Source of the DNA: a virus
IMG/VR virus record: IMGVR_UViG_3300025853_000004
Span: 1-59,977 of that record
Strand: one strand, 5' to 3'
DNA length: 59,977 bases
A program made the position numbers and the translations under genes. Shown piece by piece: positions 9,019 to 59,977 of the stretch (positions are counted from its first letter, which is position 1; every line of letters starts with the position of its first letter). The notes under the pieces are model-generated. The model was given only the letters and a program-made list of their open reading frames with translations. It was not told where the DNA came from and searched no databases.

Positions 9019-9462
9019 CCCCCAAAGGCTTTTCCAATCTACTGGAAACCCGCTACGGAATACCGGATCTACCTTGGTGATTCCCTCCATCTTCAGATCA
9101 AGAGCATCTGCGCCCTTATAAAGCAAGATTTCTGGAGCGGCCGTTTTAGTTTGTCTTTTTATCAGAATCCATGTTGACGCATGGCTATGAGTATTTAGAA
9201 AGGCAACTTGATGTGGCCGCAAGTCCACGGTATTTCCCCGAGTAACTTTCAGTTCAATTAAGTGGAAGCGGCCTTGATCGTCACAAACAAGAAGGTCAGG
9301 TATCCCTGCGGTCAGCCAAGTTTCCAACCGCGTTAGGATTATCTTTTGATCAAGCTTCTTCGTCCCTTCCCGAATCTGCTTGTAGAAGTTGCTTTCCGTC
9401 GTATTCGTCTTCTTCTTCGTAGCTTCCTCCCACGGGAGTGACATCGACGATGCTTGACTCAT
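9001..9462 (-). CDS. VRR-NUC-like PD-(D/E)xK nuclease
   Basis: 153 residues. The core reads Glu24, then AGIPDLLV (52-59, Asp56), HLIELK (67-72, Glu70 and Lys72) and RPHQVAFL (82-89, Gln85): the VRR-NUC order of a G-x-P-D strand, an E-x-K strand and a helix with a conserved Gln. Such enzymes cut structured DNA, for example resolving branched replication or packaging intermediates. The first 38 codons overlap the end of terS in another frame by 113 bases; Glu24 lies in the overlapping part, so the overlap is probably real. A pairing with terS suggests a job at packaging. Confidence 0.8.
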   Translation of the reverse strand: MSQASSMSLPWEEATKKKTNTTESNFYKQIREGTKKLDQKIILTRLETWLTAGIPDLLVCDDQGRFHLIELKVTRGNTVDLRPHQVAFLNTHSHASTWILIKRQTKTAAPEILLYKGADALDLKMEGITKVDPVFRSGFPVDWKSLWGLICFR

Positions 9463-9940
9463 AACTCTTTCTCATTTCATCCAGTGCTTTCATGACTTCT
9501 TCTTTGCTCATTTGATCAATGGAGCCATGTCTAATTTCTGATTTATTTACATAGATATCGCCATGTGCTTGGCCACGCCGATATTCCGCTTGGACTGCCG
9601 CAGAGTAAGCCCCATTCTGCAAAGCTTCATCTCGAATACGCTGAAGGTCTCGCAGATGCCGCTGAAAGTTCACGCCATATTTAGCATCCAGTTCATCACG
9701 ATATTCTTTGATCGCCGCCACAACGTGGGGACAATATTGAGGGTTAGTCATTTCATGCGCTCGAACATGTGCGCTTGCCGGTGGATAGCCGGCATTGATT
9801 GCGGCTTCCCGCATAGTGATCTGGCCGTCATTGCTGACCAGTTCTTTCACAAAGAGTTCTTGCTTCCGCGTGAGCTTTCTTTGTCTCAACTTATCCAGTT
9901 CAGCCTTGTTCGCCACTGGATCTCTCTTAATTCTAGGCAT
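9350..9940 (-). CDS. terS: Terminase small subunit
   Basis: 196 residues. The N-terminal half has the Terminase_2-type DNA-binding arrangement: RKLTRKQELFVKELVSNDG, then TMREAAINAGY (helix-turn-helix), followed by a long helix (VAAIKEYRDELDAKYGVNF) that would form the oligomer core. The C-terminus is acidic. Start at 9940 follows GGAGGGG. It has its own promoter (9978-10006), and the GTTAC cluster upstream (10071-10313) is a candidate recognition site. It recognises phage DNA and loads TerL (encoded 5 kb away). Confidence 0.85.
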   Translation of the reverse strand: MPRIKRDPVANKAELDKLRQRKLTRKQELFVKELVSNDGQITMREAAINAGYPPASAHVRAHEMTNPQYCPHVVAAIKEYRDELDAKYGVNFQRHLRDLQRIRDEALQNGAYSAAVQAEYRRGQAHGDIYVNKSEIRHGSIDQMSKEEVMKALDEMRKSYESSIVDVTPVGGSYEEEDEYDGKQLLQADSGRDEEA

Positions 9941-9977
9941 TGCCCCTCCGAACAGTAAATGGTCGTATCAGAGTTAA

Positions 9978-10006
9978 AATATAGCCTTCTTTCTTATATA
10001 GAGCAA
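9978..10006 (-). promoter_or_regulatory. Candidate terS promoter
   Basis: -35 TTGCTC (complement of 10001-10006), 17-base spacer, -10 TATATT (complement of 9978-9983), in an AT-rich context. It lacks a TATGCGA site, unlike the other early promoters. About 30 bases separate it from the strong ribosome site GGAGGGG before terS. Confidence 0.6.
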
Positions 10007-10070
10007 AATTCAAAAGAAATATTTTTTGCATCTCCCCCCGCCTAACGCACTTTTGATTTATTGATTTCTT

Positions 10071-10313
10071 GGTTACATATTTGTAGTTACATGGTGTAAC
10101 AGTTTATGTAACCACTGAAAGTCTTGCTATATAAGGGATAGAGCGGTTCGGTTACACGGTTACACCGGTTACGGCTATTTTTTCAAAAAAATATTTTTCT
10201 AATTTCTGAGCCATATAAGTAACGTGTATTTTTTGTAACCAAAAACAAGAAAGCCCCGTGAGCCGTGGACTCCGGAGCTTTCCCCTCTGTTACACAATCT
10301 GTAAAAGTTACAC
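10071..10313. repeat. Cluster of eleven GTTAC/GTAAC elements upstream of terS
   Basis: Eleven copies of GTTAC or its complement in 243 bases. Part 1 is a nested dyad: GGTTACATA (10071-10079) pairs with TATGTAACC (10105-10113), enclosing GTTACA-TGG-TGTAAC (10086-10100). Part 2 is a tandem: GGTTACAC at 10150, GGTTACAC at 10158, GGTTAC at 10167. Part 3 is inverted copies at 10219-10223 and 10235-10240. Part 4 is GTTACAC at 10289 and 10307. About 0.5 would be expected by chance. Candidate pac/cos recognition site, origin iterons or partition site. Confidence 0.8.
10241..10282 (-). terminator. Rho-independent terminator
   Basis: 10-bp stem with one mismatch (10249-10258 with 10273-10282), 14-base loop, then a T-rich run complementary to 10241-10245. 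Ends the operon 11209-10308. It lies inside the GTTAC cluster. Confidence 0.7.
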
Positions 10314-12037: not shown

Positions 12038-12129
12038 CGTATCGCCTCAAAGTACAGCCAGTGGGTCGCATACAGTCCTGCCACGATCAGCGGGACGATC
12101 CAAATAAAGTCTGGATCAAACTTAATCAT
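12034..12129 (-). CDS. 31-residue single-span membrane peptide
   Basis: Reads MIKFDPDFIWIVPLIVAGLY and ends THWLYFEAIR. Residues 9-27 are a hydrophobic helix. The start overlaps the RHH stop by 8 bases and the stop overlaps the next start as ATGA, so it is in a coupled chain. Encoded between a repressor-like gene and small soluble proteins; a membrane modulator role is a guess. Confidence 0.55.
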   Translation of the reverse strand: MIKFDPDFIWIVPLIVAGLYATHWLYFEAIR

Positions 12130-12319
12130 ACACGTTCATGCGCCGTGGATCTTTCTTCGGGTCATACGAATGTTTTTTGTGGTAACCGTTATCGATGTAG
12201 GTTTCAAAAATCAGACGCAGTTGCCCAGAAATCGTTCGGCCTTCGGCTTGAGCGATCTCCTTGATGTCTTCGTACACATCACGAGGCACTAGGACGCTTT
12301 TCCAACGTTGGGTATCCAT
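12122..12319 (-). CDS. Ribbon-helix-helix (Arc/CopG-type) transcriptional regulator
   Basis: 65 residues: MDTQRWKSVLVPRDVYEDIK, continuing with EIAQAEGRTISGQLRLIFETY. A beta strand (RWKSVLVP), helix A (DVYEDIKEIAQAEG), the turn RTIS and helix B give the RHH fold. It would dimerise and read DNA with the strands. Its promoter (12343-12371) carries a tandem 10-bp operator in the spacer, so autorepression is likely, and a near copy lies before terL. GGAG before ATG 12319 is a good ribosome site. The only clear DNA-binding repressor-type protein in the phage, apart from a sigma4-like HTH at 16574. Target assignment is inference. Confidence 0.8.
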   Translation of the reverse strand: MDTQRWKSVLVPRDVYEDIKEIAQAEGRTISGQLRLIFETYIDNGYHKKHSYDPKKDPRRMNVYD

Positions 12320-12449: not shown

Positions 12450-12465
12450 GTAGCCTAAAGGCTAC
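12450..12465 (-). other. Hairpin over DNA polymerase stop codon
   Basis: Perfect 6-bp stem GTAGCC/GGCTAC with a 4-base loop; the stop codon (12462-12464) is in the stem. No T-run. Possibly an RNA-stabilising 3' structure. Confidence 0.45.
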
Positions 12466-14354
12466 ACCGCTTCGCCCCAACTAGGCCCGATCTCGACATC
12501 GCACTTGTTAGGTACCTCTAAAGGTACAGCACACTCCATGATCTGTGCAATTTCTATTGCCTCATTTTTATCTTTGACCGACATGGCGATTTCATCATGC
12601 ACCTGTATTAGCGGGATCCGCCCTGTTTTGTACACGTTGACCATCGCTTGCTTGGTCATATCCGCCGCCGACGCTTGGATCAGTCGGTTCAAGGCTTTAT
12701 AAGTGAACGCACGCTTGAGTCGCGTGGTGTCACCGTACTCTTTCACGGCATCACGGTAGGGCAAGGCTTTGTGCATGGCGAAGCTGTCTGGCTCCCACAG
12801 GTCAAAGCGGCATTTCCTGCCTAGGATAGACCGGATCGATCCCGACGCATCCTTTTCGTTCAGCCGATTCATTACACCCGTCATCAATCCTTTCACAAAA
12901 GGTACGCGGTCGTGGTACTGGTTAATCAAGCTTTTGGCTTCTTCCACCGGAATGTCTAGCTGATCGGCCAGTTTGTTGACGCCCATGCCGTACATCATGC
13001 CCAAGTTAATGGTTTTCGCTTGCTTACGGCCGATGCCCGCCATGTCCGCAACCATCGTATGGAAGTCGGTGTCAGGGTCGTCGTTGTACTTTTGTACAAA
13101 ATCCTTGGCCCCTTGTAACGGGATGCCGCGCGATTTGCCATACACATGCGCGTAGTGAACCAAGATCCGTGGTTCCTGTTGCGAGAAATCAATTGCCGCC
13201 CACTGCTCATCTTCTTCCGGCAGGAACAAACTGCGGATCATCGGCCCCAGTTCAGGATCGCGGGCCGGTATCTGTTGTAGGTTGGGGTTGTTCATCGACA
13301 GCCGGCCAGACACCGTGCCACCTTGGTCGGAGCGGTTCTGGTTAATGTGACCGTGAATCCGCCCGTCCTTGTTGCAATATTTTAAAATGTTATTGATGAA
13401 CGTCCCTGACGTCTTGTTGATGTTACGCGCATCAACAATCAGTCGCGCGAATGGATGCTGTTGTTCCGCAAGGAACGTCTTCGTGAACGAAGGAGCGCCT
13501 TTCTCCGTTTTAGGATACGCAATCCCGAGTTCGTCGAACGCTTTGGATAATGATTGTGCCGCCCAGATTTCAACGCCAAACCCCGCTTGTCTTTTGATTT
13601 CTTTGTGTAACTCCGCCTCGCGCTTTAACAAGGCGTCGCGTGTACGCTCGGTCTTGTCCATATCAACGCGGACACCACGGTAGGTCATGTCTACCAAACA
13701 AGGCAGGAGGTCGAGTTCGAGGTTGACGATATCCCAAAGCCCCTGCTTGCCCACTTCTACACGCATGTAATTCCAGAGTTCGAGCGCTAACTGCGCGTCA
13801 ACTTCTGCATACGGGCCGACATACATGGCCGGCATCTTCCACATCTCTGCTTTTGGGTCGAGGCCGAAGGTGCGTGCCGCTTCAATTAAGTCTTTCTCTG
13901 ACTTAGTTTTGCCAAGCAAATCAAAGGACAAAGCATTGAGGCTGTAACTAAAGCGGTTCTCGTCCAATAAACTGGCGATCAGCATCGTATCAACAATGCG
14001 GCCGTTCAACTGAAAGCCTTCTCGCTTGATCCAACCGGCGTCGTACTGCGCGTTGTGCATCACTTTTTCACAAGGCAATTCAAAAACCTTCTTGAGCCAC
14101 TTGCTTATAATTCTTTTGTCTAAATTACCCCCGCCCTTATGCCCAACAGGAATATAACCAGACCAATCGTCGGTCGCGATGGCATAACCAACCACCTCGC
14201 CATTACCTGTGGCCCAACCCGGCCCCATCGTTTTGATGTCAGGGTCGCGCGTTTCCACGTCGATAGCAATACGAACCGCACTGCTCAGGTCAGGTAGCTC
14301 TGCCGGCGGCACCCATTCAGTCTTCGGCGTAAACATCGCCATTTGCAAACTCAT
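12462..14354 (-). CDS. Family A DNA polymerase with 3'-5' exonuclease
   Basis: 630 residues, the phage replicase. Exonuclease: DVE (32-34), HNAQYD (100-105) and YAEVD (182-186). Polymerase: motif A AIDFSQQEPR (Asp389), motif B RKQAKTINLGMMYG (Arg443, Lys447, Tyr455) and motif C VHDE (585-588). There is no 5'-3' exonuclease domain and no internal DnaJ-like insertion. The residue equivalent to E. coli Phe762 is Leu451; Leu at this site is common in marine viral polymerases and has been linked to slower, possibly temperate replication (from the literature, not shown here). The start overlaps the preceding stop as ATGA. Confidence 0.95.
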   Translation of the reverse strand: MSLQMAMFTPKTEWVPPAELPDLSSAVRIAIDVETRDPDIKTMGPGWATGNGEVVGYAIATDDWSGYIPVGHKGGGNLDKRIISKWLKKVFELPCEKVMHNAQYDAGWIKREGFQLNGRIVDTMLIASLLDENRFSYSLNALSFDLLGKTKSEKDLIEAARTFGLDPKAEMWKMPAMYVGPYAEVDAQLALELWNYMRVEVGKQGLWDIVNLELDLLPCLVDMTYRGVRVDMDKTERTRDALLKREAELHKEIKRQAGFGVEIWAAQSLSKAFDELGIAYPKTEKGAPSFTKTFLAEQQHPFARLIVDARNINKTSGTFINNILKYCNKDGRIHGHINQNRSDQGGTVSGRLSMNNPNLQQIPARDPELGPMIRSLFLPEEDEQWAAIDFSQQEPRILVHYAHVYGKSRGIPLQGAKDFVQKYNDDPDTDFHTMVADMAGIGRKQAKTINLGMMYGMGVNKLADQLDIPVEEAKSLINQYHDRVPFVKGLMTGVMNRLNEKDASGSIRSILGRKCRFDLWEPDSFAMHKALPYRDAVKEYGDTTRLKRAFTYKALNRLIQASAADMTKQAMVNVYKTGRIPLIQVHDEIAMSVKDKNEAIEIAQIMECAVPLEVPNKCDVEIGPSWGEAV

Positions 14355-14870: not shown

Positions 14871-15118
14871 AAATACTCCACTTCGCTCACTTTTAACGGC
14901 ATACCGTCTTCATACACTGACTTCCACACGGGACTGCCTACCGACAGATCCAGATCGGGAGCATCCATTTCCTGCTCTTCAACTTCAATCGCTTCGAGCG
15001 AAACATAATCCGGCATCTCTGGGTAATTGCGTTCATGCAACCACGTCGCACAGATGACATACTCTCGATCCTCTGCGTCCCAATACCAGTGTGTCCCGTA
15101 GTATTTTCCAGACTTCAT
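14867..15118 (-). CDS. Hypothetical protein
   Basis: 83 residues, aromatic-rich at the start (YYGTHWYWDAEDREYVICATW) and acidic later. Not recognised. ATGA overlaps on both sides place it in the same polycistron as the helicase and polymerase. Confidence 0.6.
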   Translation of the reverse strand: MKSGKYYGTHWYWDAEDREYVICATWLHERNYPEMPDYVSLEAIEVEEQEMDAPDLDLSVGSPVWKSVYEDGMPLKVSEVEYL

Positions 15119-16626
15119 AGCTCGTAACTCCTTGATACGTCTTCCGGTTCTACAATAAATAAGTTTTGCCTTGCTCTGGTCACGCCAACGTAAAACACCC
15201 GATGCAAATCATCGGGGTTGTTGCGTGCCGCTTTTTCTGCCGCAGGGGATAAATCTGTAAAAAGTACAACGTTGTCCGCTTCACCGCCCTTTGACCCGTG
15301 GATCGTGGACACCGTAATGCGAGGCTCGCCATTGAACTTTTCTCCGCGACGCAAGAGCGCAATGATGTAAGCCCGATCCTGCTCTGGCAGTTTGTCCATC
15401 GCGACGTGCCAGATCATCTCTTTGTTTGCATTAAGCCCGTGATCCGCGATTAGCGTATCCAGATCAACCATGTCCTCATCGCCAAGCGCAGGCAGTTTTT
15501 TAAACCCCCTCGCCACACGTTCTTTGCCGCTCATGAACGCGTAGATGTTCCGCGCTGTCTTGCCTGAGATTTCACGGCCCTTGCGTAATGCTTCCCAACC
15601 ATTGACGGCGTCGGCTACTTTCTCAGAAATAGACCGGTGTCCGCGGTAGTTGAACAGATAACCGTTTGACTTGAGGTCGGTCGCAACGGGCGACAACTGG
15701 TAACCCGCTTGTGACAGGATCAGCCACGATCCGTTAGCCATGTCGATTCCATCAATGGTCGAGATGCTGCTAACTTGCCCACGATCTGTTTTTGGTTCGT
15801 AGCGTTTCGGGAACCGTCGGCTAATCCGGTTGGAAATGTTTTCCGCCACGGCATGAACTGAAGACGGCACACGATACGACTGCGCTAAGATCTCAGAACC
15901 GCCGTCCAGATTGATGAAATGATCGACGTCTGCCCCTGCCCAACGGTAGATCGCTTGGTCGTCATCTCCCGCGCAATACATCTTGTCGGACATGTCATCC
16001 AGAATATGCGCGATATCCCACTGCAACGGGGACAAATCCTGCGCTTCATCCAGAAACGTCAGCTTAAACCGGTGCTTGAACGTCGGTGCTTGTTCCACAA
16101 ACAGTTCCAGCATGTCGGTGAAATCGCATAGATTGTACAAAGTCTTGTACTTGCGTAACGATTTATCGACGTAATTGACCGTATTCCAGTCAACATCCAG
16201 TTCGCTTTCGTTGTACTGCTCGCGCAATGGCACCTTACGAAGCCGCGCAAGGTTAATCAAACCGAGCAAGGGGTCGTTTGTTTTAGCCAGATCCATGAAA
16301 TCATCCGAACCTTGTTTGGAACCAAAGAGTTCCACGCCGATGGCATGGCTTAGTTCCTTGTAATGCTCTGGTTGCATGATCTGCTCAGAGCTAATGTCGG
16401 TCATGGACAAGGCAAGGCTGTGCAACGTCCTGAAAAATATCAGATCGTTCTTGGCATCAAGGCTGAACCTTTCGGCCGCACGCTCTTTTGCTTCTGTCGC
16501 CGCTTTCTTAGTGAAGGCAAGGAAGGCAATCTCTTGAGGCAATACGCCTGATTCGAGCGCCTTATCTACCATATTAAGTAGCGTTGTTGTTTTTCCGGTT
16601 CCCGGTGGTCCGAAGATTCTGAACAT
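15115..16626 (-). CDS. UvrD/PcrA-like superfamily 1 DNA helicase
   Basis: 503 residues. Walker A GPPGTGKTTT at the extreme N-terminus (6-15), then FLAFTKKAATEAKERA (motif Ia), FLDEAQDLSPLQWD (motif II), AGDDDQAIYRWAGAD (motif III), ILAQSYR (IV), ISTIHGSKGGEADNV (V) and YVGVTRARQNLFIVEP (VI). Shorter than UvrD (about 720), lacking much of subdomain 1B/2B. Probably unwinds the template for the polymerase or processes recombination forks. GACTACGGGA, a variant of the shared leader, lies immediately before ATG 16626. Confidence 0.92.
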   Translation of the reverse strand: MFRIFGPPGTGKTTTLLNMVDKALESGVLPQEIAFLAFTKKAATEAKERAAERFSLDAKNDLIFFRTLHSLALSMTDISSEQIMQPEHYKELSHAIGVELFGSKQGSDDFMDLAKTNDPLLGLINLARLRKVPLREQYNESELDVDWNTVNYVDKSLRKYKTLYNLCDFTDMLELFVEQAPTFKHRFKLTFLDEAQDLSPLQWDIAHILDDMSDKMYCAGDDDQAIYRWAGADVDHFINLDGGSEILAQSYRVPSSVHAVAENISNRISRRFPKRYEPKTDRGQVSSISTIDGIDMANGSWLILSQAGYQLSPVATDLKSNGYLFNYRGHRSISEKVADAVNGWEALRKGREISGKTARNIYAFMSGKERVARGFKKLPALGDEDMVDLDTLIADHGLNANKEMIWHVAMDKLPEQDRAYIIALLRRGEKFNGEPRITVSTIHGSKGGEADNVVLFTDLSPAAEKAARNNPDDLHRVFYVGVTRARQNLFIVEPEDVSRSYEL

Positions 16627-16783: not shown

Positions 16784-17024
16784 CCACCCACTCCTCTAAT
16801 TCTTTAATGCCCTGTACGCGTTCTACAAATATCGGCGTGTGTTCCCCGATGTAAGAACCCAAAATATTAAAGTTGAAATACTCAACGGCTTCCCAGATCT
16901 CGCACTTCAATTCTCTTTGAACCGCCTGTATCGCCAAGTCGATGTCGTACACGACAACTGCCGGTTCTCCGCATCGGTGACCAACACCAATAATCGCATC
17001 GTCTAATCCGTCTGCTTTTAACAT
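16764..17024 (-). CDS. Conserved hypothetical protein
   Basis: 86 residues. GVGHRCGEPAVVVYDIDLAI followed by EAVEYFNFNILGSYIGEHTP matches a small phage family seen in replication clusters (A-x-EYFxFNxxGxxxGxxTP). No known activity. The start shares a base with the primase stop. Confidence 0.7.
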   Translation of the reverse strand: MLKADGLDDAIIGVGHRCGEPAVVVYDIDLAIQAVQRELKCEIWEAVEYFNFNILGSYIGEHTPIFVERVQGIKELEEWVDANGQP

Positions 17025-18556
17025 CAGAATGGGGCCTCTTCTTGGTCAAACTTAGGTTTCAGATCTATGTCTGCTGATTCAAAGGATGGGATAGACCACA
17101 CGCGGACTGCCCGCCCCTTAATCTTTAACACGGTGCTTTCGCCGCTGATATCCCGCAAGCGTTGAGCAATCTTGTGCGATTTAAATTCAAAAAACTTATT
17201 CTTTCGCAGATGTGCTTCAAAATCCCGTAGTCTGAAATAGGTCTTGTTAGTGTCCTCGTCGGTCCAAGGGCGGCGGAGCAAGATCTCTTCTTTGTCCTGC
17301 GCTTGCTGTAAATGCCGGCAAAACTCTTCGAGGTAGTCGTAGAACTGGCCGGAGGTCGAAGCATCCTGTGCCACTTCCATGATTGCGCTTTCATTATCGC
17401 GCATCTCGCTCATGAGCGCGCTAATCCGACTCTCCCAGTTTTGTTTTGATGCTGTGCGAGGCATGAAATTGAGTTGTTCCATGCACGCTTTTTGGAAAGT
17501 TGCTTGAGACAATAGCGCATCTGTATCGAGTTCGAGAGGCTCGCCATTGACGTCCATGAACCAGACGGGAGGTGTGGAGTTATACTTTCTAAGATTTGCG
17601 ATAGCCGCACCCTGACTTGCGGCGCCAATCCCAAATTTACGCGTTTGACAGAGGTCTTTGTTGCAGTGGGCGCAGATCGGCGCATCACTGCACTTGTAAG
17701 CGTAATCCTTTTTTTCAAGTTGCTTCGCAACGATATTAACTTCGTTGAGTGGTAAGGGCGGAGCCAAATACTGGGCATTGTACTCAAGTATCTTACTTTC
17801 CCATTCGTCCGGATACGCCTTGCGGAGGTAGACCCCCAGATTGAATAGCCCATTGTTACGTCCCCCTTCTGAGATTTTTTCTTTACACAGGTACTGTAAG
17901 CATGGCGGCCCGTCTTTAACGATAATCTCTGGGCCATTGGTGTTCTGCGTCAGAGCCTTAACTTGCTCCGGAGTCTGCACATGCGCGTCGTAGAGCGCAA
18001 AAAACTCTTCCAGAGTAGCTGAGGTGCCGTCGTCTTTAATCGCGTAGCGTAGGCCGTCTTCTGCGTCGTAGTACGGCAGATTCAAAAAGTTACCGATGTC
18101 GCCACGATCCAGATGGAGCTTCACCTGCTTTGGAAAAATTTCGCTGTTACCGTAGCCGAGAGCCGTCGAGATGCTTTGCAGAGTTTCCTGCATTAGCTTG
18201 GCTTCAATCCACTCGGTTGAAAACAAAAAGCAATGCGCGCCGCCAGATTTGGAGCGACACACAACTAAAGGCAGTTTGGCCTGACGGATCTTGGAGACGA
18301 GATCAGTGTGGTCCAAAGGGTACTGATCGATATCAATACAGCCCCAGACACAACTGTTGTCTTCGTTAATCGGAATAATACCGATGCCCTTGCCAGTTCC
18401 AGACAAGTGACCTTCCCATAGTTCCGTGGTCCGTGTTTCTCGAACGACGGCCGCTTTACCGGCGCTCTTGCCGCTTTGCGTCTTCTTCTCAATTTTAAAA
18501 GTTCCATACGCCTGTTCCAGACCGGCGAAGATAGAACTAAATTTTTCGACTGACAT
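17024..18556 (-). CDS. Archaeo-eukaryotic-type primase (TOTE-like)
   Basis: 510 residues. The N-terminal domain is AEP-like: WGCIDID (71-77, catalytic Asp75/Asp77), SKSGGAHCFLF (102-112, His108) and a third element about FPKQVKLHLDRGDIGNFLNL. This is the arrangement of the primase domain in TOTE conflict systems. In the middle, CSDAPICAHCNKDLCQ gives a four- or five-cysteine zinc cluster. The C-terminal part is helical and charged, with no helicase motifs, so unwinding would come from the SF1 or SNF2 helicase. It probably makes primers for the family A polymerase. Preceded by an attenuator-like hairpin. Confidence 0.8.
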   Translation of the reverse strand: MSVEKFSSIFAGLEQAYGTFKIEKKTQSGKSAGKAAVVRETRTTELWEGHLSGTGKGIGIIPINEDNSCVWGCIDIDQYPLDHTDLVSKIRQAKLPLVVCRSKSGGAHCFLFSTEWIEAKLMQETLQSISTALGYGNSEIFPKQVKLHLDRGDIGNFLNLPYYDAEDGLRYAIKDDGTSATLEEFFALYDAHVQTPEQVKALTQNTNGPEIIVKDGPPCLQYLCKEKISEGGRNNGLFNLGVYLRKAYPDEWESKILEYNAQYLAPPLPLNEVNIVAKQLEKKDYAYKCSDAPICAHCNKDLCQTRKFGIGAASQGAAIANLRKYNSTPPVWFMDVNGEPLELDTDALLSQATFQKACMEQLNFMPRTASKQNWESRISALMSEMRDNESAIMEVAQDASTSGQFYDYLEEFCRHLQQAQDKEEILLRRPWTDEDTNKTYFRLRDFEAHLRKNKFFEFKSHKIAQRLRDISGESTVLKIKGRAVRVWSIPSFESADIDLKPKFDQEEAPF

Positions 18557-19965: not shown

Positions 19966-20001
19966 GCGCTTTCCTCCGTTATTAAAGGCACCGTTTGGGC
20001 C

Positions 20002-20029
20002 TTGACATTTCTATATATAATCCTATGAT
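20002..20029 (+). promoter_or_regulatory. Promoter of the SNF2 helicase gene in a divergent intergenic region
   Basis: -35 TTGACA (20002-20007), 16-base spacer, -10 TATGAT (20024-20029). The 89-base gap must also contain the start of the leftward replication operon, but no good minus-strand promoter stands out. ATATAATCCTATGAT (20015-20029) is nearly repeated at 55209-55223. Confidence 0.75.
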
Positions 20030-20054
20030 TAGCAAGAGTCAAGGGGAAAGTGAC

Positions 20055-21509
20055 ATGAATTTTGAAAACTATGAATTTAAGACTAAGCCGTATGATCATC
20101 AGCTTAACGCGCTACGCGACTCGTGGGCCGCGGAATACTATGCGCTGTTCATGGAGATGGGAACGGGTAAGTCGAAAGTTACAATTGATACGATGGGTAT
20201 GTTGTATGAAAAAGGTCATATCGACGCGGCGCTCATCATTGCTCCGAAGGGCGTCTACGATAACTGGGTTCGCAAAGAATTAGAAGCCCATTTGCCTGAG
20301 CGCATTGCAACGCAGGTCGTCCGTTGGACGCCTTCTGGTGCCAAGAGTTATCAGGACGAGCTAGTCAAGTTAGTCTACGAAGCCTTTGAAGGGCTTAAAA
20401 TTTTTGTGATGAACGTTGAGGCGTTTTCTACCCCACGGGGTACGCGAGCCGCGTATGAATTCTGCAAAAAGAATCCTGATAATTTAGTGATTGTTGATGA
20501 ATCGACGACGATTAAGAACAGAAAAGCACAGCGGACCGCGAACATTGTAGAACTGTTGAAGGTCAGCAAGTACCGTCGCATCCTCACAGGTTCTCCTATT
20601 ACAAAGTCCCCGATGGATTTGTTTAGCCAGTGCGCGTTCCTGTCCCCCAAGGCGCTTGGTATTAACTCGTACTACGGCTACCAGAACCGTTACGCCGTTG
20701 TACAGAAGCGCACGATGGGTCACAAAAGCTTTAATGAGATCACCGGCTACCGTCGTCTGGATGAGCTAAACGAAAAACTCGATAAGTTCAGCAATCGCGT
20801 ACTGAAGTCAGACTGTCTGGATTTGCCAGATAAAGTGTACATGCGGCGCAACGTCAGCCTGACCGATGAGCAAGCCAAAGCCTACAAACAAATGCAGAAA
20901 CTTGCTTTGGCAAAGCTGGAGTCTGGAGAGTTATCCACAACTGCGTCGGTATTAACCCAAATTATGCGATTACAGCAAATTTGTTGTGGACATCTTCCTG
21001 ACGATGCCGGTGATTTGCATACTTTAAAGAGCAATCGTTTGTCAGAACTGCTTGATATTATTGAAGAAACTTCTGGCAAGATCATTATATGGGCAACCTT
21101 TACGCATGATCTGAAGATTATTTATTCAGAGCTAACCAAGAAGTATGGCGAAGGCTCGTCCCGCATTTACTTTGGCGAGACGCCGCAGGATGAACGGCAA
21201 GAGATTGTTGAAACGTTCCAAGATCCTAACAGCGAGCTACGATTCTTTGTTGGCCAACCCCGCACAGGGGGCTACGGCATTACCCTGACCGAAGCAGGTA
21301 CTATGATCTACTACAATAACGGTTACGACTTAGAGATACGCTTGCAGTCAGAAGATCGCGCTCACCGCATTGGGCAAGAAAAGAACGTCACTTACATTGA
21401 TATTGTCACGCCAAACACCGTAGATGAAAAAATCCTCGGTGCTTTACGAGACAAGATTGATATCGCAGGTCAGGTCTTAGGTGAAGATACTAAGACTTGG
21501 TTGATCTAG
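20055..21509 (+). CDS. SNF2-family DEAD-like helicase
   Basis: 484 residues, the only plus-strand gene. Motif I MGTGKSK (35-41), motif II VDES, motif III ILTGSPITKSPMDLF, and the C-terminal RecA lobe with WATFTHDLKI, GYGITLTEAGTMIYY and RAHRIGQEKNVTYIDIV (motif VI). It moves along duplex DNA, displacing proteins or remodelling forks. I chose the ATG at 20055, with AAGGGGAAA upstream; the frame to 19995 would cross the promoter. The 3' end overlaps the convergent gene 21490-22212 by 20 bases with no terminator. Confidence 0.92.
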   Translation: MNFENYEFKTKPYDHQLNALRDSWAAEYYALFMEMGTGKSKVTIDTMGMLYEKGHIDAALIIAPKGVYDNWVRKELEAHLPERIATQVVRWTPSGAKSYQDELVKLVYEAFEGLKIFVMNVEAFSTPRGTRAAYEFCKKNPDNLVIVDESTTIKNRKAQRTANIVELLKVSKYRRILTGSPITKSPMDLFSQCAFLSPKALGINSYYGYQNRYAVVQKRTMGHKSFNEITGYRRLDELNEKLDKFSNRVLKSDCLDLPDKVYMRRNVSLTDEQAKAYKQMQKLALAKLESGELSTTASVLTQIMRLQQICCGHLPDDAGDLHTLKSNRLSELLDIIEETSGKIIIWATFTHDLKIIYSELTKKYGEGSSRIYFGETPQDERQEIVETFQDPNSELRFFVGQPRTGGYGITLTEAGTMIYYNNGYDLEIRLQSEDRAHRIGQEKNVTYIDIVTPNTVDEKILGALRDKIDIAGQVLGEDTKTWLI

Positions 21510-22212
21510 GCCGCATCTGCAAGCCCAGTGATCCGATGCCCGCGGTCACAGGGCCGCCTTGTGCGAAAGCCCTATCAAACTGAAAGCCGAAACCTCCGGG
21601 GACCTTACCCATAGAGAATCCACCGCCAAGACCTACGCGGCCATCACCAAACTGGCCGGCACCTAAAGCTTGTTCCATGGCTTCTTGAGGAGTTGTTGGA
21701 TTACCCATGGGCGTATTGATGGAATCCATTAATCTTCTTTCTTGCGGAGTCAAATCATCGACGTTTGGAACAGTCACGTTTGGCATATTGATCGCTAGAT
21801 TGTCGTAAAGACCACCCATTGGTGTCGTGGGCGTAACTGGCGCCGATGCAAAAGCCGAGCGTTGTGTAGATAAGTCTGTTACTTCAGGAGTACCGCGGTT
21901 AGATAGGTTGACCTGCCCTGCAAACGGACGCGAAAAATCTTCGACAACAACGCCGTTAGGTAGCGTTTTTGTATAGTTAGGAGTGCTTGTTACCGTAGCA
22001 GGCGTCGTGTTGAAGTTCACGGTGTTTCCACGGCTATCTGTACGCGTATTAGGTCCGGGTTGCGTGGTCCGCGATCCCTGCCCTGTTTGCTGATTTGAAT
22101 ACGCGCTATCGCTAGTGGAGTTATTTCCACCGCCACCACCACCGAAGCAGTACATGGACGTCTCTGGATCAAAACCGATTTGTTTTTTTCTTACGATGCC
22201 ATCTTCAAACAT
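21490..22212 (-). CDS. Hypothetical virion-region protein, last of the structural operon
   Basis: 240 residues. Begins MFEDGIVRKKQIGFDPETSM, then a CFGGGGGGN stretch and a low-complexity Ser/Thr/Asn/Gly region, ending with GVGGGFSMGKVPGGF-like sequence and GGPVTAGIG. The Gly-Gly-rich ends are typical of marine podovirus internal virion proteins. Overlaps the acyltransferase gene by 22 bases. It ends inside the convergent helicase 3' end. Confidence 0.6.
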   Translation of the reverse strand: MFEDGIVRKKQIGFDPETSMYCFGGGGGGNNSTSDSAYSNQQTGQGSRTTQPGPNTRTDSRGNTVNFNTTPATVTSTPNYTKTLPNGVVVEDFSRPFAGQVNLSNRGTPEVTDLSTQRSAFASAPVTPTTPMGGLYDNLAINMPNVTVPNVDDLTPQERRLMDSINTPMGNPTTPQEAMEQALGAGQFGDGRVGLGGGFSMGKVPGGFGFQFDRAFAQGGPVTAGIGSLGLQMRPRSTKS

Positions 22213-22625
22213 AATTCATCTCGTCTCTTTGCTATGCGTCCCAAGCGGTCTTTTGCGTACCGGAAAAAATGACATTCGCCTTTGACTGTCCCATATTGGG
22301 CCTGCAAAGTCTTGCCTGCATCCTTTACACATTGTCTCACATTTTTAAACGCAATAAAGTCGATGGCGTATAAACGGCCATCCTCTGGTCCGGTTTGCCA
22401 GTCGCTTGGTTGCAACTTATCTGTTTTTGTCAGATACCCAAGCTCTGTACACTCCGTTAAAAACGTGTAGGTAAAGAAGCCTATTGGCTCCTCACCGTCG
22501 TAGAAAAACTGAATCCTGTTGTTTTCAATCGCAGGAGTTATCCAGTCTTCCAGATCAGAAATAAACCACGGGCGATGGAAGTCGGACCGCATCATCAAGC
22601 TGACTGCCAGTCCGAGTTCGTTCAC
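22191..22625 (-). CDS. HlyC-like toxin-activating lysine acyltransferase
   Basis: 144 residues. LGLAVSLMMRSDFHRPW aligns with the HlyC N-terminus, His17 corresponding to catalytic His23; ITPAIENNRIQFFYDGEEPI, then FFTYTFLTECTE, LQPSDWQTGPEDG and LYAIDFIAF (Asp89, matching HlyC Asp92) follow in the family order. HlyC-type enzymes use acyl-ACP to attach fatty acid to lysines of RTX toxins. There is no RTX gene in the phage. The gene overlaps the 1403-residue internal protein gene by 4 bases, so that protein, or its product in the host envelope, is the natural candidate substrate. The substrate is inference; the family call is from visible motifs. Confidence 0.75.
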   Translation of the reverse strand: MNELGLAVSLMMRSDFHRPWFISDLEDWITPAIENNRIQFFYDGEEPIGFFTYTFLTECTELGYLTKTDKLQPSDWQTGPEDGRLYAIDFIAFKNVRQCVKDAGKTLQAQYGTVKGECHFFRYAKDRLGRIAKRRDELCLKMAS

Positions 22626-57912: not shown

Positions 57913-59977
57913 TTACTGTCCTCTCATTTTAAGTAGTTCACGCTCACGACCTGCGTCGATCCGAGCTTGAGTTTGTGCCGCTTGCGCTTGTAACCGGTCG
58001 TAGAACTGGCGGTCACGCATCTGCAACGTCTGCTGATCCAATTGTAACTTAGCCGCATCCAACTGTGCATCTTGCTGTTCAGCCTGCGCCTTGAGTTGCA
58101 ATTCCTGTTCCTTGAGTTGCACAACAGGATCTGGCCCTTGCCCAGATACTTGCTGAGACAACTGCTTGACCTGTTGCATCCCTTCGGCAATGTATTGAGC
58201 GACTAAGCCCTCAAACTCCATCATGCGCTGTTCAGGGTTCGCCGCAGGTCCTTGTTGCGCGGTAATTTGCTCAAACTCAGCCGAAGCGCGCTCCCGAGCA
58301 GATATCTGAACGTGCTCCATGATGTGTTTCTGCAAAGCCATCGCCACAGGAGGCATACCAGCAACCATCGGCGTTGAACCAAAAACCATATGTGACATGA
58401 TATGTGCTTGATGGTTTTGACCCTCGAAGGCTTCGAGTTTGGCCATGTCGAGTGCATCGATATTCTCCTGTGCAGGGTCCGCGGGCCGCGAGTCGTCTTC
58501 CGGTGCCGCCTTCATGATCCTGTCAATATCCCTCACGCCCAACGCATCGTACATATCGCGGTAGACTTCATACATGTTGTGGAGTTCCGGAGCGGCGCCC
58601 GCCAACTGTAGTTTTGTCTGCGCCAGTACAATCCGCTGTGCCTGACTGAATACGTTCGGATCGGAGACAGGAATGACGTCTACGCGATCATCAAAATCTG
58701 TTGCCATGACCGAAGAGTCTTCGCCTTCCACAGAGTACGGATACTCTGGGGGCAAGCTCTCTGCCATGACGCGAGCCAAAATCTTAAACTCAAGACGCAT
58801 TGCATAATGCAACCGTTTGTGGATAGCCGACATGACCCGCGAGCCTTGCTCCAGCATTGCGATTGTCGTGCCCACAGCGGCGTTCTGATTGCCGTCGCCT
58901 ACCTTCATATCTGTAATGGTCGCGAACCGCTGTCCGGCCTCTACAACGAAGCCTAGCAACTGGAACAGCGTCTGGTCTGGGCCTTTGAACGGCAGAGGCA
59001 TCAAGCTGTCGCGAATCGCACCGCCGGGGGCGTCCACATCTCGGAATTCACCGGGCTGGAGTGGATCATCATCGTCCCTGATCCGCAGACCACGGGCTTT
59101 GAAACCTGCGGGCAGGTTCGAGAGCGTACCGGCGTCGATCAACTGCCGTAATGCCGAGGTTGCTGTGCGGGACAGGCCGCCAATGGTGTGGATCAAGCCC
59201 AAGCCATAGAAACCAAAGCCCGGTAAGAACTTGTAATGCACAAAATATTGAATTTTCTTACGGAATTCGTCGTCTTCAGCGTAATTCCGACGGATAGCGA
59301 GGATTTCGCCCGTGTCATAGCTTAATGTAACGACGTATGGGATCTTGATACCCGTCAATTCGCCTTCGTCATCGACATCTTCATAGCCTTCGAGGTCCAA
59401 ATCGACGTGACACTCCAACAAAGTTGCGTCGTAATCAATCTGAGAGGCGGTTACGCCATCAATCCGGTTGATTTCGTCGGTAACAGAGTCGCTCTGACCC
59501 TCGCCCGGAGTAACCGGAACGTCCAGATAGAAGCCTGAAACCTGCTGTTTCCGCAAATCGTTGAGCGACATCCGCACAACTTGCGTAATATTCGGGCAAG
59601 TTTCCAGATCGGAGGTTTCGTAAGGCACGACGAGGTTTTCTGCGGGGACAAATTTGCTCACCGCGCGGTTTAAGTTCTCGTCGAAATACACTTTCTTAAA
59701 GGTAGAACCCGCCAGTGGGAGGTAGAACAGCATCTGATCCATGTCTGGCGTGTAGTCTTCCATCACGTTGGTGATGTAATAATTCATAAACTGACGAACA
59801 CGACGTGCCTGACCCTCTTTTTCCTTGGTCTTATCGCCCATAACGGTGGTGCGAACAGGCCCAGAAGCCGGCAATAATTCGTTAAACGCCTGTGCTTGGA
59901 ACTGCGTCGCCGCTTCGGCCAGCAAAGGATGCGTTACACCGCTGGATCCGCGGAAAGGTTGCGTCCGCTCTTCGTAG
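57913..59977 (-). CDS. Portal protein, main part (P22-like podovirus portal)
   Basis: C-terminal portion of the 805-residue portal; the true start is at 394 across the circular junction. The sequence after the junction (THPLLAEAATQF) and the later segment GDKTKEKEGQARRVRQFMNY are typical of P22-like portal proteins of marine podoviruses. The last 130 or so residues are very Gln/Ala-rich and should form long helices, as in the portal barrel. It is followed closely by a run of small genes (57911 downward). It docks terminase during packaging and the gp4-like adaptor afterwards. The length is in the usual range for P22-like portals (about 700-800). Confidence 0.93.
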   Translation of the reverse strand, partial: YEERTQPFRGSSGVTHPLLAEAATQFQAQAFNELLPASGPVRTTVMGDKTKEKEGQARRVRQFMNYYITNVMEDYTPDMDQMLFYLPLAGSTFKKVYFDENLNRAVSKFVPAENLVVPYETSDLETCPNITQVVRMSLNDLRKQQVSGFYLDVPVTPGEGQSDSVTDEINRIDGVTASQIDYDATLLECHVDLDLEGYEDVDDEGELTGIKIPYVVTLSYDTGEILAIRRNYAEDDEFRKKIQYFVHYKFLPGFGFYGLGLIHTIGGLSRTATSALRQLIDAGTLSNLPAGFKARGLRIRDDDDPLQPGEFRDVDAPGGAIRDSLMPLPFKGPDQTLFQLLGFVVEAGQRFATITDMKVGDGNQNAAVGTTIAMLEQGSRVMSAIHKRLHYAMRLEFKILARVMAESLPPEYPYSVEGEDSSVMATDFDDRVDVIPVSDPNVFSQAQRIVLAQTKLQLAGAAPELHNMYEVYRDMYDALGVRDIDRIMKAAPEDDSRPADPAQENIDALDMAKLEAFEGQNHQAHIMSHMVFGSTPMVAGMPPVAMALQKHIMEHVQISARERASAEFEQITAQQGPAANPEQRMMEFEGLVAQYIAEGMQQVKQLSQQVSGQGPDPVVQLKEQELQLKAQAEQQDAQLDAAKLQLDQQTLQMRDRQFYDRLQAQAAQTQARIDAGRERELLKMRGQ
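59937..59977. repeat. Terminal direct repeat, right copy
   Basis: Exact copy of bases 1-41. With one copy removed the circle is 59,936 bp. The exact 41-base length carries no visible inverted repeat or cos-like feature, so a true packaging terminus here is unlikely. Confidence 0.95.

Follow-up and report, generated by a model that had tools for sequence, protein, structure and literature searches.

A GTTAC repeat array upstream of terS as a probable phage replication origin recognised by the phage's own primase

A cluster of GTTAC words upstream of terS in a viral genome most probably forms the iterons of the phage's replication origin, and the protein that reads them is probably its own AEP-type primase, through a C-terminal winged helix. 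The DNA analysed, a stretch of 59,977 nucleotides (the window), is one viral record (IMGVR_UViG_3300025853_000004) that begins and ends with the same 41 bases (1-41 and 59937-59977), which makes the assembly a circle of 59,936 bp. The identified genes lie nearly all on the minus strand, one exception being that of an SNF2-like helicase (19995-21509). They include terS (9350-9940; PHROG 51, Pfam Terminase_2), which is the next gene downstream of the array, and genes for a family A DNA polymerase (PolA, 12462-14354), a UvrD-like SF1 helicase (15115-16626; annotation including Pfam), and an AEP-type primase of 510 residues (17024-18556; PHROG 21866, Pfam AEP-TOTE, Foldseek match to the CRISPR-associated prim-pol 7nqe/7nqf); the polymerase is taken as a partner of the primase in the replisome and the helicase as a probable one. 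A small ribbon-helix-helix protein (RHH_5, 12122-12319, minus strand) is kept beside PolA in many relatives. Further along the same strand, a 144-residue protein (22191-22625) has a Pfam match to the HlyC-type acyltransferases (PF02794, E 3e-16), and its gene adjoins that of a 1403-residue protein that has no Pfam match.

Eleven exact copies of GTTAC/GTAAC (on either strand) lie at 10072-10311, within 243 bp. The whole window holds 131 copies of GTTAC on both strands, these 11 among them, and at this average density a segment of 243 bp would be expected to hold 0.53. In 2000 shuffles of the region that preserved its dinucleotides, the mean was 1.3 copies and the maximum 6, and the densest other 243 bp anywhere in the window contains 5. 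The cluster described in an earlier reading of the sequence alone is thus real and far above both expectations, and the tandem triplet with an 8-9 base period, the dyads, and the position 5' of terS that this reading also described were all found again.

The core of the array consists of an AT-rich tract, a direct triplet (GTAACCGGTGTAACCGTGTAACC), about 38 bp of spacer, and then inverted copies. The triplet (10151-10172, minus strand) reads GTAACCGGTGTAACCGTGTAAC on the terS strand, with spacings of 9 and 8 bp, and the spacer (10114-10150) contains TTATATAG. The terS-proximal sites (10072-10112) comprise two inverted copies (10108-10112 and 10096-10100) and two direct copies (10086-10090 and 10072-10076), and dyads such as TGGTTACATA/TATGTAACCA are present at 10070-10114. 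On the other side of the triplet, the adjoining tract (10173-10210) is 79% A+T, rising to 95% at 10185-10205, and is a candidate DNA-unwinding element; past it lie an outer pair of sites at 10219-10239 (10219-10223 and 10235-10239) and an outermost pair at 10289-10311 (10289-10293 and 10307-10311). A second AT-rich stretch in the gap between the array and terS (9965-10035, 73% A+T) holds a CTCTATATAAG motif and is possibly a second unwinding region or the terS promoter. As at iteron origins, a short word thus occurs in direct and inverted copies at a fixed layout, next to a region that is AT-rich by base composition. No switch in GC skew marks its position.

Conservation of the repeats in relatives had been proposed as a check, and both the sites and their spacings are conserved. 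A scan with the window's TerS collected 80 loci, and a scan for the triplet pattern found it in at least 119 viral contigs; the contigs are metagenomic and possibly chimeric. Bacterial and archaeal genomes totalling 257 Gb gave only 11 matches to the same pattern, mostly in nonphage or distant contexts, the informative ones being DUF927 prophages and one distant contig from a metagenome-assembled genome (MAG), L281. Of 141 distinct array loci, 114 have terS after the array, at a median distance of 232 bp, and wherever terS is present, the orientation of the triplet towards it is constant. Site spacing is kept almost to the base within the window's lineage. Other lineages retain the triplet and inverted copies, most of them keeping an inverted pair; the spacer between triplet and inverted sites measures about 38-43 bp across lineages with variable letters, and the AT-rich tract beside the triplet is found in nearly all relatives. 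The outer pair at 10219-10239 is present in the window's lineage and missing from most others, and the outermost pair at 10289-10311 is lineage specific (L010 is without it). In the cultured Pelagibacter phage HTVC023P (L565, 11600-11800), a cluster of TAGGAAA repeats lies upstream of terS at the array's position.

Comparison of close relatives revealed that the 5-bp word is exchanged in every copy of an array at once, with the frame and the spacers unchanged. In many relatives GTTAC replaces GTAAC in all copies at the same positions, and the words seen are GTAAC, GTTAC, GGTAC, GGGAC, GGGAT, and GGAAC, and elsewhere GTGAT. TerS is identical at 214 of 214 residues across phages whose arrays carry GGGAT (L078), GGTAC (L079), and GGGAC (L080). 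Because the word changes as a set while TerS stays identical, the array appears to have a sequence-specific reader other than TerS. One array near terS (L322) has GGGAC in its left triplet and GGTAC in its right pair, and looks like a recombinant or a word-switching intermediate. A group of phages whose primases are about 40% identical to that of G025 (L523, L531, L541, L550, L551, and L560) has arrays upstream of terS with the same layout as the window's and the words GAGTAC, GTAAAC, TGAGTC, and GGATAC. In L069 and its relatives, an HNH endonuclease-like gene located some 1.7 kb upstream of the array shares only 74-77% identity between phages that have 98-100% identical replication proteins.

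Six conserved protein families (primase, UvrD, PolA, gp33, gp34, and SNF2) were compared column by column among whole or partial contigs with known words. Residue 476 of the primase (V476 in the window; codon at 17129-17131, minus strand) had a column score of 1.0, and no other column in any of the six families scored above 0.64. In this first set the residue was L with GTTAC (7/7), V with GTAAC (17/17), Q with GGGAC or GGTAC (2/2), and K with GGAAC (5/5), and it differed in all 9 of the nearest pairs that switch word and in none of 13 same-word pairs. When the set was enlarged by further primase scans, 51 of 53 distinct phages fitted the code (V-GTAAC 31, L-GTTAC 10, K-GGAAC 5, Q-GGGAC 4, Q-GGTAC 1). 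The two exceptions, S-GTAAC (L247) and T-GTTAC (L470), involve residues otherwise unseen in that set. Of 13 switch pairs, 12 differed at residue 476, as did 8% of the 25 pairs that share a word. A tree constructed without the winged-helix domain shows 13 changes of the word and 13 of the residue, and independent pairs on supported branches changed concordantly in 5-6 of 7 cases and in the opposite sense in none, in a run that included one spurious row (L448). The GGGAC triplet of L448, on a contig without terS or any surrounding array layout, appears to have arisen by chance or from coding sequence and was rejected. As judged from these alignments, then, the word covaries strongly with a residue of the phage's presumptive initiator.

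The closest natural pairs narrow the difference further. Between L496 (GTAAC) and the near-identical L493, L291, and L262 (GTTAC), the primases differ at 4-6 of 512 residues, and the only changes common to all three comparisons are M475T, L476V, and V499L, near the C terminus; TerS is identical across this set (204/204), and PolA of L496 is 99% identical to that of L493. None of the other families examined as readers (UvrD, PolA, SNF2, gp33, and gp34) has a column near primase 476 in score, and the ribbon-helix-helix protein and the product of the hypervariable HNH gene were rejected as readers, being identical or nearly so across words.

With primases only about 29-30% identical to the window's, cultured phages of Acinetobacter, Salmonella, Klebsiella, Pseudomonas, and Providencia follow the code as well. 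Five of these (PMBT28, VLCpiS6a, K21lambda1, PSA28, and Kokobel2) combine K with GGAAC, the Acinetobacter phages JeffCo and Barton combine V with GTAAC, and the distant contig L281 combines L with GTTAC, with a less certain alignment of the wing. Acinetobacter phages with A or S at the position of residue 476 have GCAAC or arrays that are degenerate at position 2. In the cultured relatives the array fills the gap immediately ahead of the primase gene rather than that ahead of terS, and in one MAG contig it lies between the primase and UvrD genes. The isolated relative DSL-LC04 had no qualifying triplet within the stretch examined. In the branch of primases about 40% identical to that of G025, V goes with GTAAAC or GTTCTC, and neither for this branch nor for the DUF927 proteins is the wing code clearly valid. 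Firmicutes phages or prophages (L221, L263, L278, and L283) encode DUF927-HTH_56 proteins, akin to the SaPI Rep and SCC Cch2 replication proteins, and GTTAC/GTAAC triplets directly adjoin the genes, an adjacency that supports a tie between such words and origin-binding domains.

AlphaFold models of the primase predict, with moderate confidence, an AEP core resembling CRISPR-associated prim-pols and a C-terminal winged helix at about residues 438-490 (17087-17245, minus strand), with V476 in the first strand of the wing; the protein would thus carry the C-terminal winged helix of an initiator-type replication protein. The nearest solved fold to the isolated domain was TcpK (probability 0.98-0.99, E 0.04-0.09), a match that is weak because of its E value. 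The domain had no match to Pfam HTH_56 and no sequence match in the PDB, and the origin-binding domain of P4 was absent among the best 50 fold matches listed. A Pfam search with the whole primase found only AEP-TOTE and no fused helicase; the UvrD-like helicase is encoded by a separate gene. The acidic C-terminal tip of the primase (17024-17060, minus strand) and of its relatives (...EEAPF or DDVPF) resembles the tips of single-strand binding proteins, and the primases of the cultured relatives end in SEF.

The sequence-only reading had preferred a site at which TerS starts DNA packaging (a pac or cos region). TerS often binds near its own gene, and the array does lie directly upstream of terS in most relatives, but we consider this reading improbable: TerS is 100% identical among phages with GGGAT, GGTAC, and GGGAC arrays, as it is between GTAAC and GTTAC phages; the array of the cultured relatives, and that of the MAG contig, stands beside the primase gene instead; and the assembly is circular with a 41-bp overlap, its ends lying away from the array. 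We found the array neither to covary with TerS nor to depend on it. Packaging may begin from a pac or cos site elsewhere in the same intergenic region. What survives of the earlier interpretation is the protein-binding array, which the exchange of words in concert and the covariation with residue 476 support, and the origin, which it had named as an alternative.

The position of the array, in a promoter-bearing gap ahead of the late genes with several CTATATA motifs, would also suit a transcriptional operator that separates early replication genes from late packaging genes and, bound by the primase or some other regulator, controls expression of terS and the late genes. Replication initiators commonly autoregulate. 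We regard an operator as unlikely, however, given that the best covarying residue belongs to a replication enzyme, that sigma-70-like promoter matches are no more frequent than chance, and that the array of the cultured relatives is not ahead of terS. If the repeats acted as RNA or single-stranded DNA, the inverted arrangement of the left and right copies would keep any shared word complementary, and words would change together to preserve pairing. Such pairing does not predict the link to primase residue 476, leaves three left copies against two or three right partners, and is contradicted by the noncomplementary halves of L322; in a search of curated RNA families, none scored above its own threshold. 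We think this explanation very unlikely. Equally little speaks for a plasmid-style partition site, or another target of a small DNA-binding protein, for example the ribbon-helix-helix protein at 12122-12319: its gene is located near the replication genes and proteins of this type often bind short tandem repeats, but it is identical between GTAAC and GTTAC phages, and we noticed nothing ParA-like among the proteins that we examined. A role of either kind is highly improbable.

The reading that we favour remains an origin recognised by the wing of the primase. The winged helix would bind each 5-bp site, with residue 476 helping to select the word, and several primase molecules would occupy the direct triplet and the inverted copies. 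Bound primase would then position itself, the UvrD-like helicase, and the family A polymerase next to the AT-rich tract; there the strands would open, the first primers would be made, and the origin would fire. We count in favour of an origin the AT-rich tract that flanks the array and the replication genes nearby, and against it the silent GC skew, the distance of about 7 kb between the array and the primase gene in the window, the imperfect code, the mixed array of L322, and the weak fold match in the PDB.

Several known systems share parts of this arrangement. Iteron plasmid and lambdoid phage origins also have tandem repeats beside an AT-rich tract, but their iterons are longer and are read by dedicated initiators, whereas the window's words are of 5 bp at a spacing of 8-9 bp. 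NrS-1 and CRISPR-associated prim-pols have an AEP-type primase core, as does the window's primase, and we know of no origin-iteron array read by a C-terminal wing in those proteins. The alpha protein of P4, as outlined in PMC4234260 (citing Ziegelin and Lanka, 1995; Yeo et al., 2002), is a primase-bearing protein whose winged-helix domain binds origin repeats (ori and crr), and to that extent it resembles the proposed reader; it differs in that a single protein combines a TOPRIM-type primase of the bacterial kind with a helicase, where the window has an AEP-type primase and encodes its UvrD-like helicase separately, and P4 also has other repeat words. The SaPI Rep and SCC Cch2 proteins likewise read short iterons (in SCC, three copies of the 5-nt AAGTG) through a C-terminal domain (PMC7581432), but these readers are initiator helicases with the origin beside their own gene, whereas in the window's lineage the reader would be a primase and the origin lies about 7 kb off, before terS. 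As the primase has no detectable fused helicase and no HTH_56 match, we class it as probably working like the P4, SaPI, and SCC proteins without being a member of their groups. TcpK of plasmid pCW3, whose winged helix places its wing in the major groove at tandem 9-nt boxes of oriT (PMC6137059), is a conjugation accessory protein and not a primase, and its fold match is the weak one described above. Our search of the open-access literature, with most subscription papers outside its scope, found no description of a code linking array and primase.

A wider generalisation is plausible but distinctly tentative: stand-alone AEP-type phage primases may carry their own origin-recognition wing with a near one-to-one code (V-GTAAC, L-GTTAC, K-GGAAC, and Q-GGKAC), with the residue and all iterons swapping together and giving private origin identities to near-identical genomes. 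If so, private origins would possibly bar co-infecting relatives or satellites from each other's replication machinery. The origin and its reader, proposed to be a primase without a fused helicase, could be predicted from sequence in a large and mostly uncultured group of phages and in the cultured phages of the five bacterial genera named above. As specificity switches in many independent lineages, and natural pairs stand only a few residues apart, the evolution of origin recognition would be directly testable in these phages.
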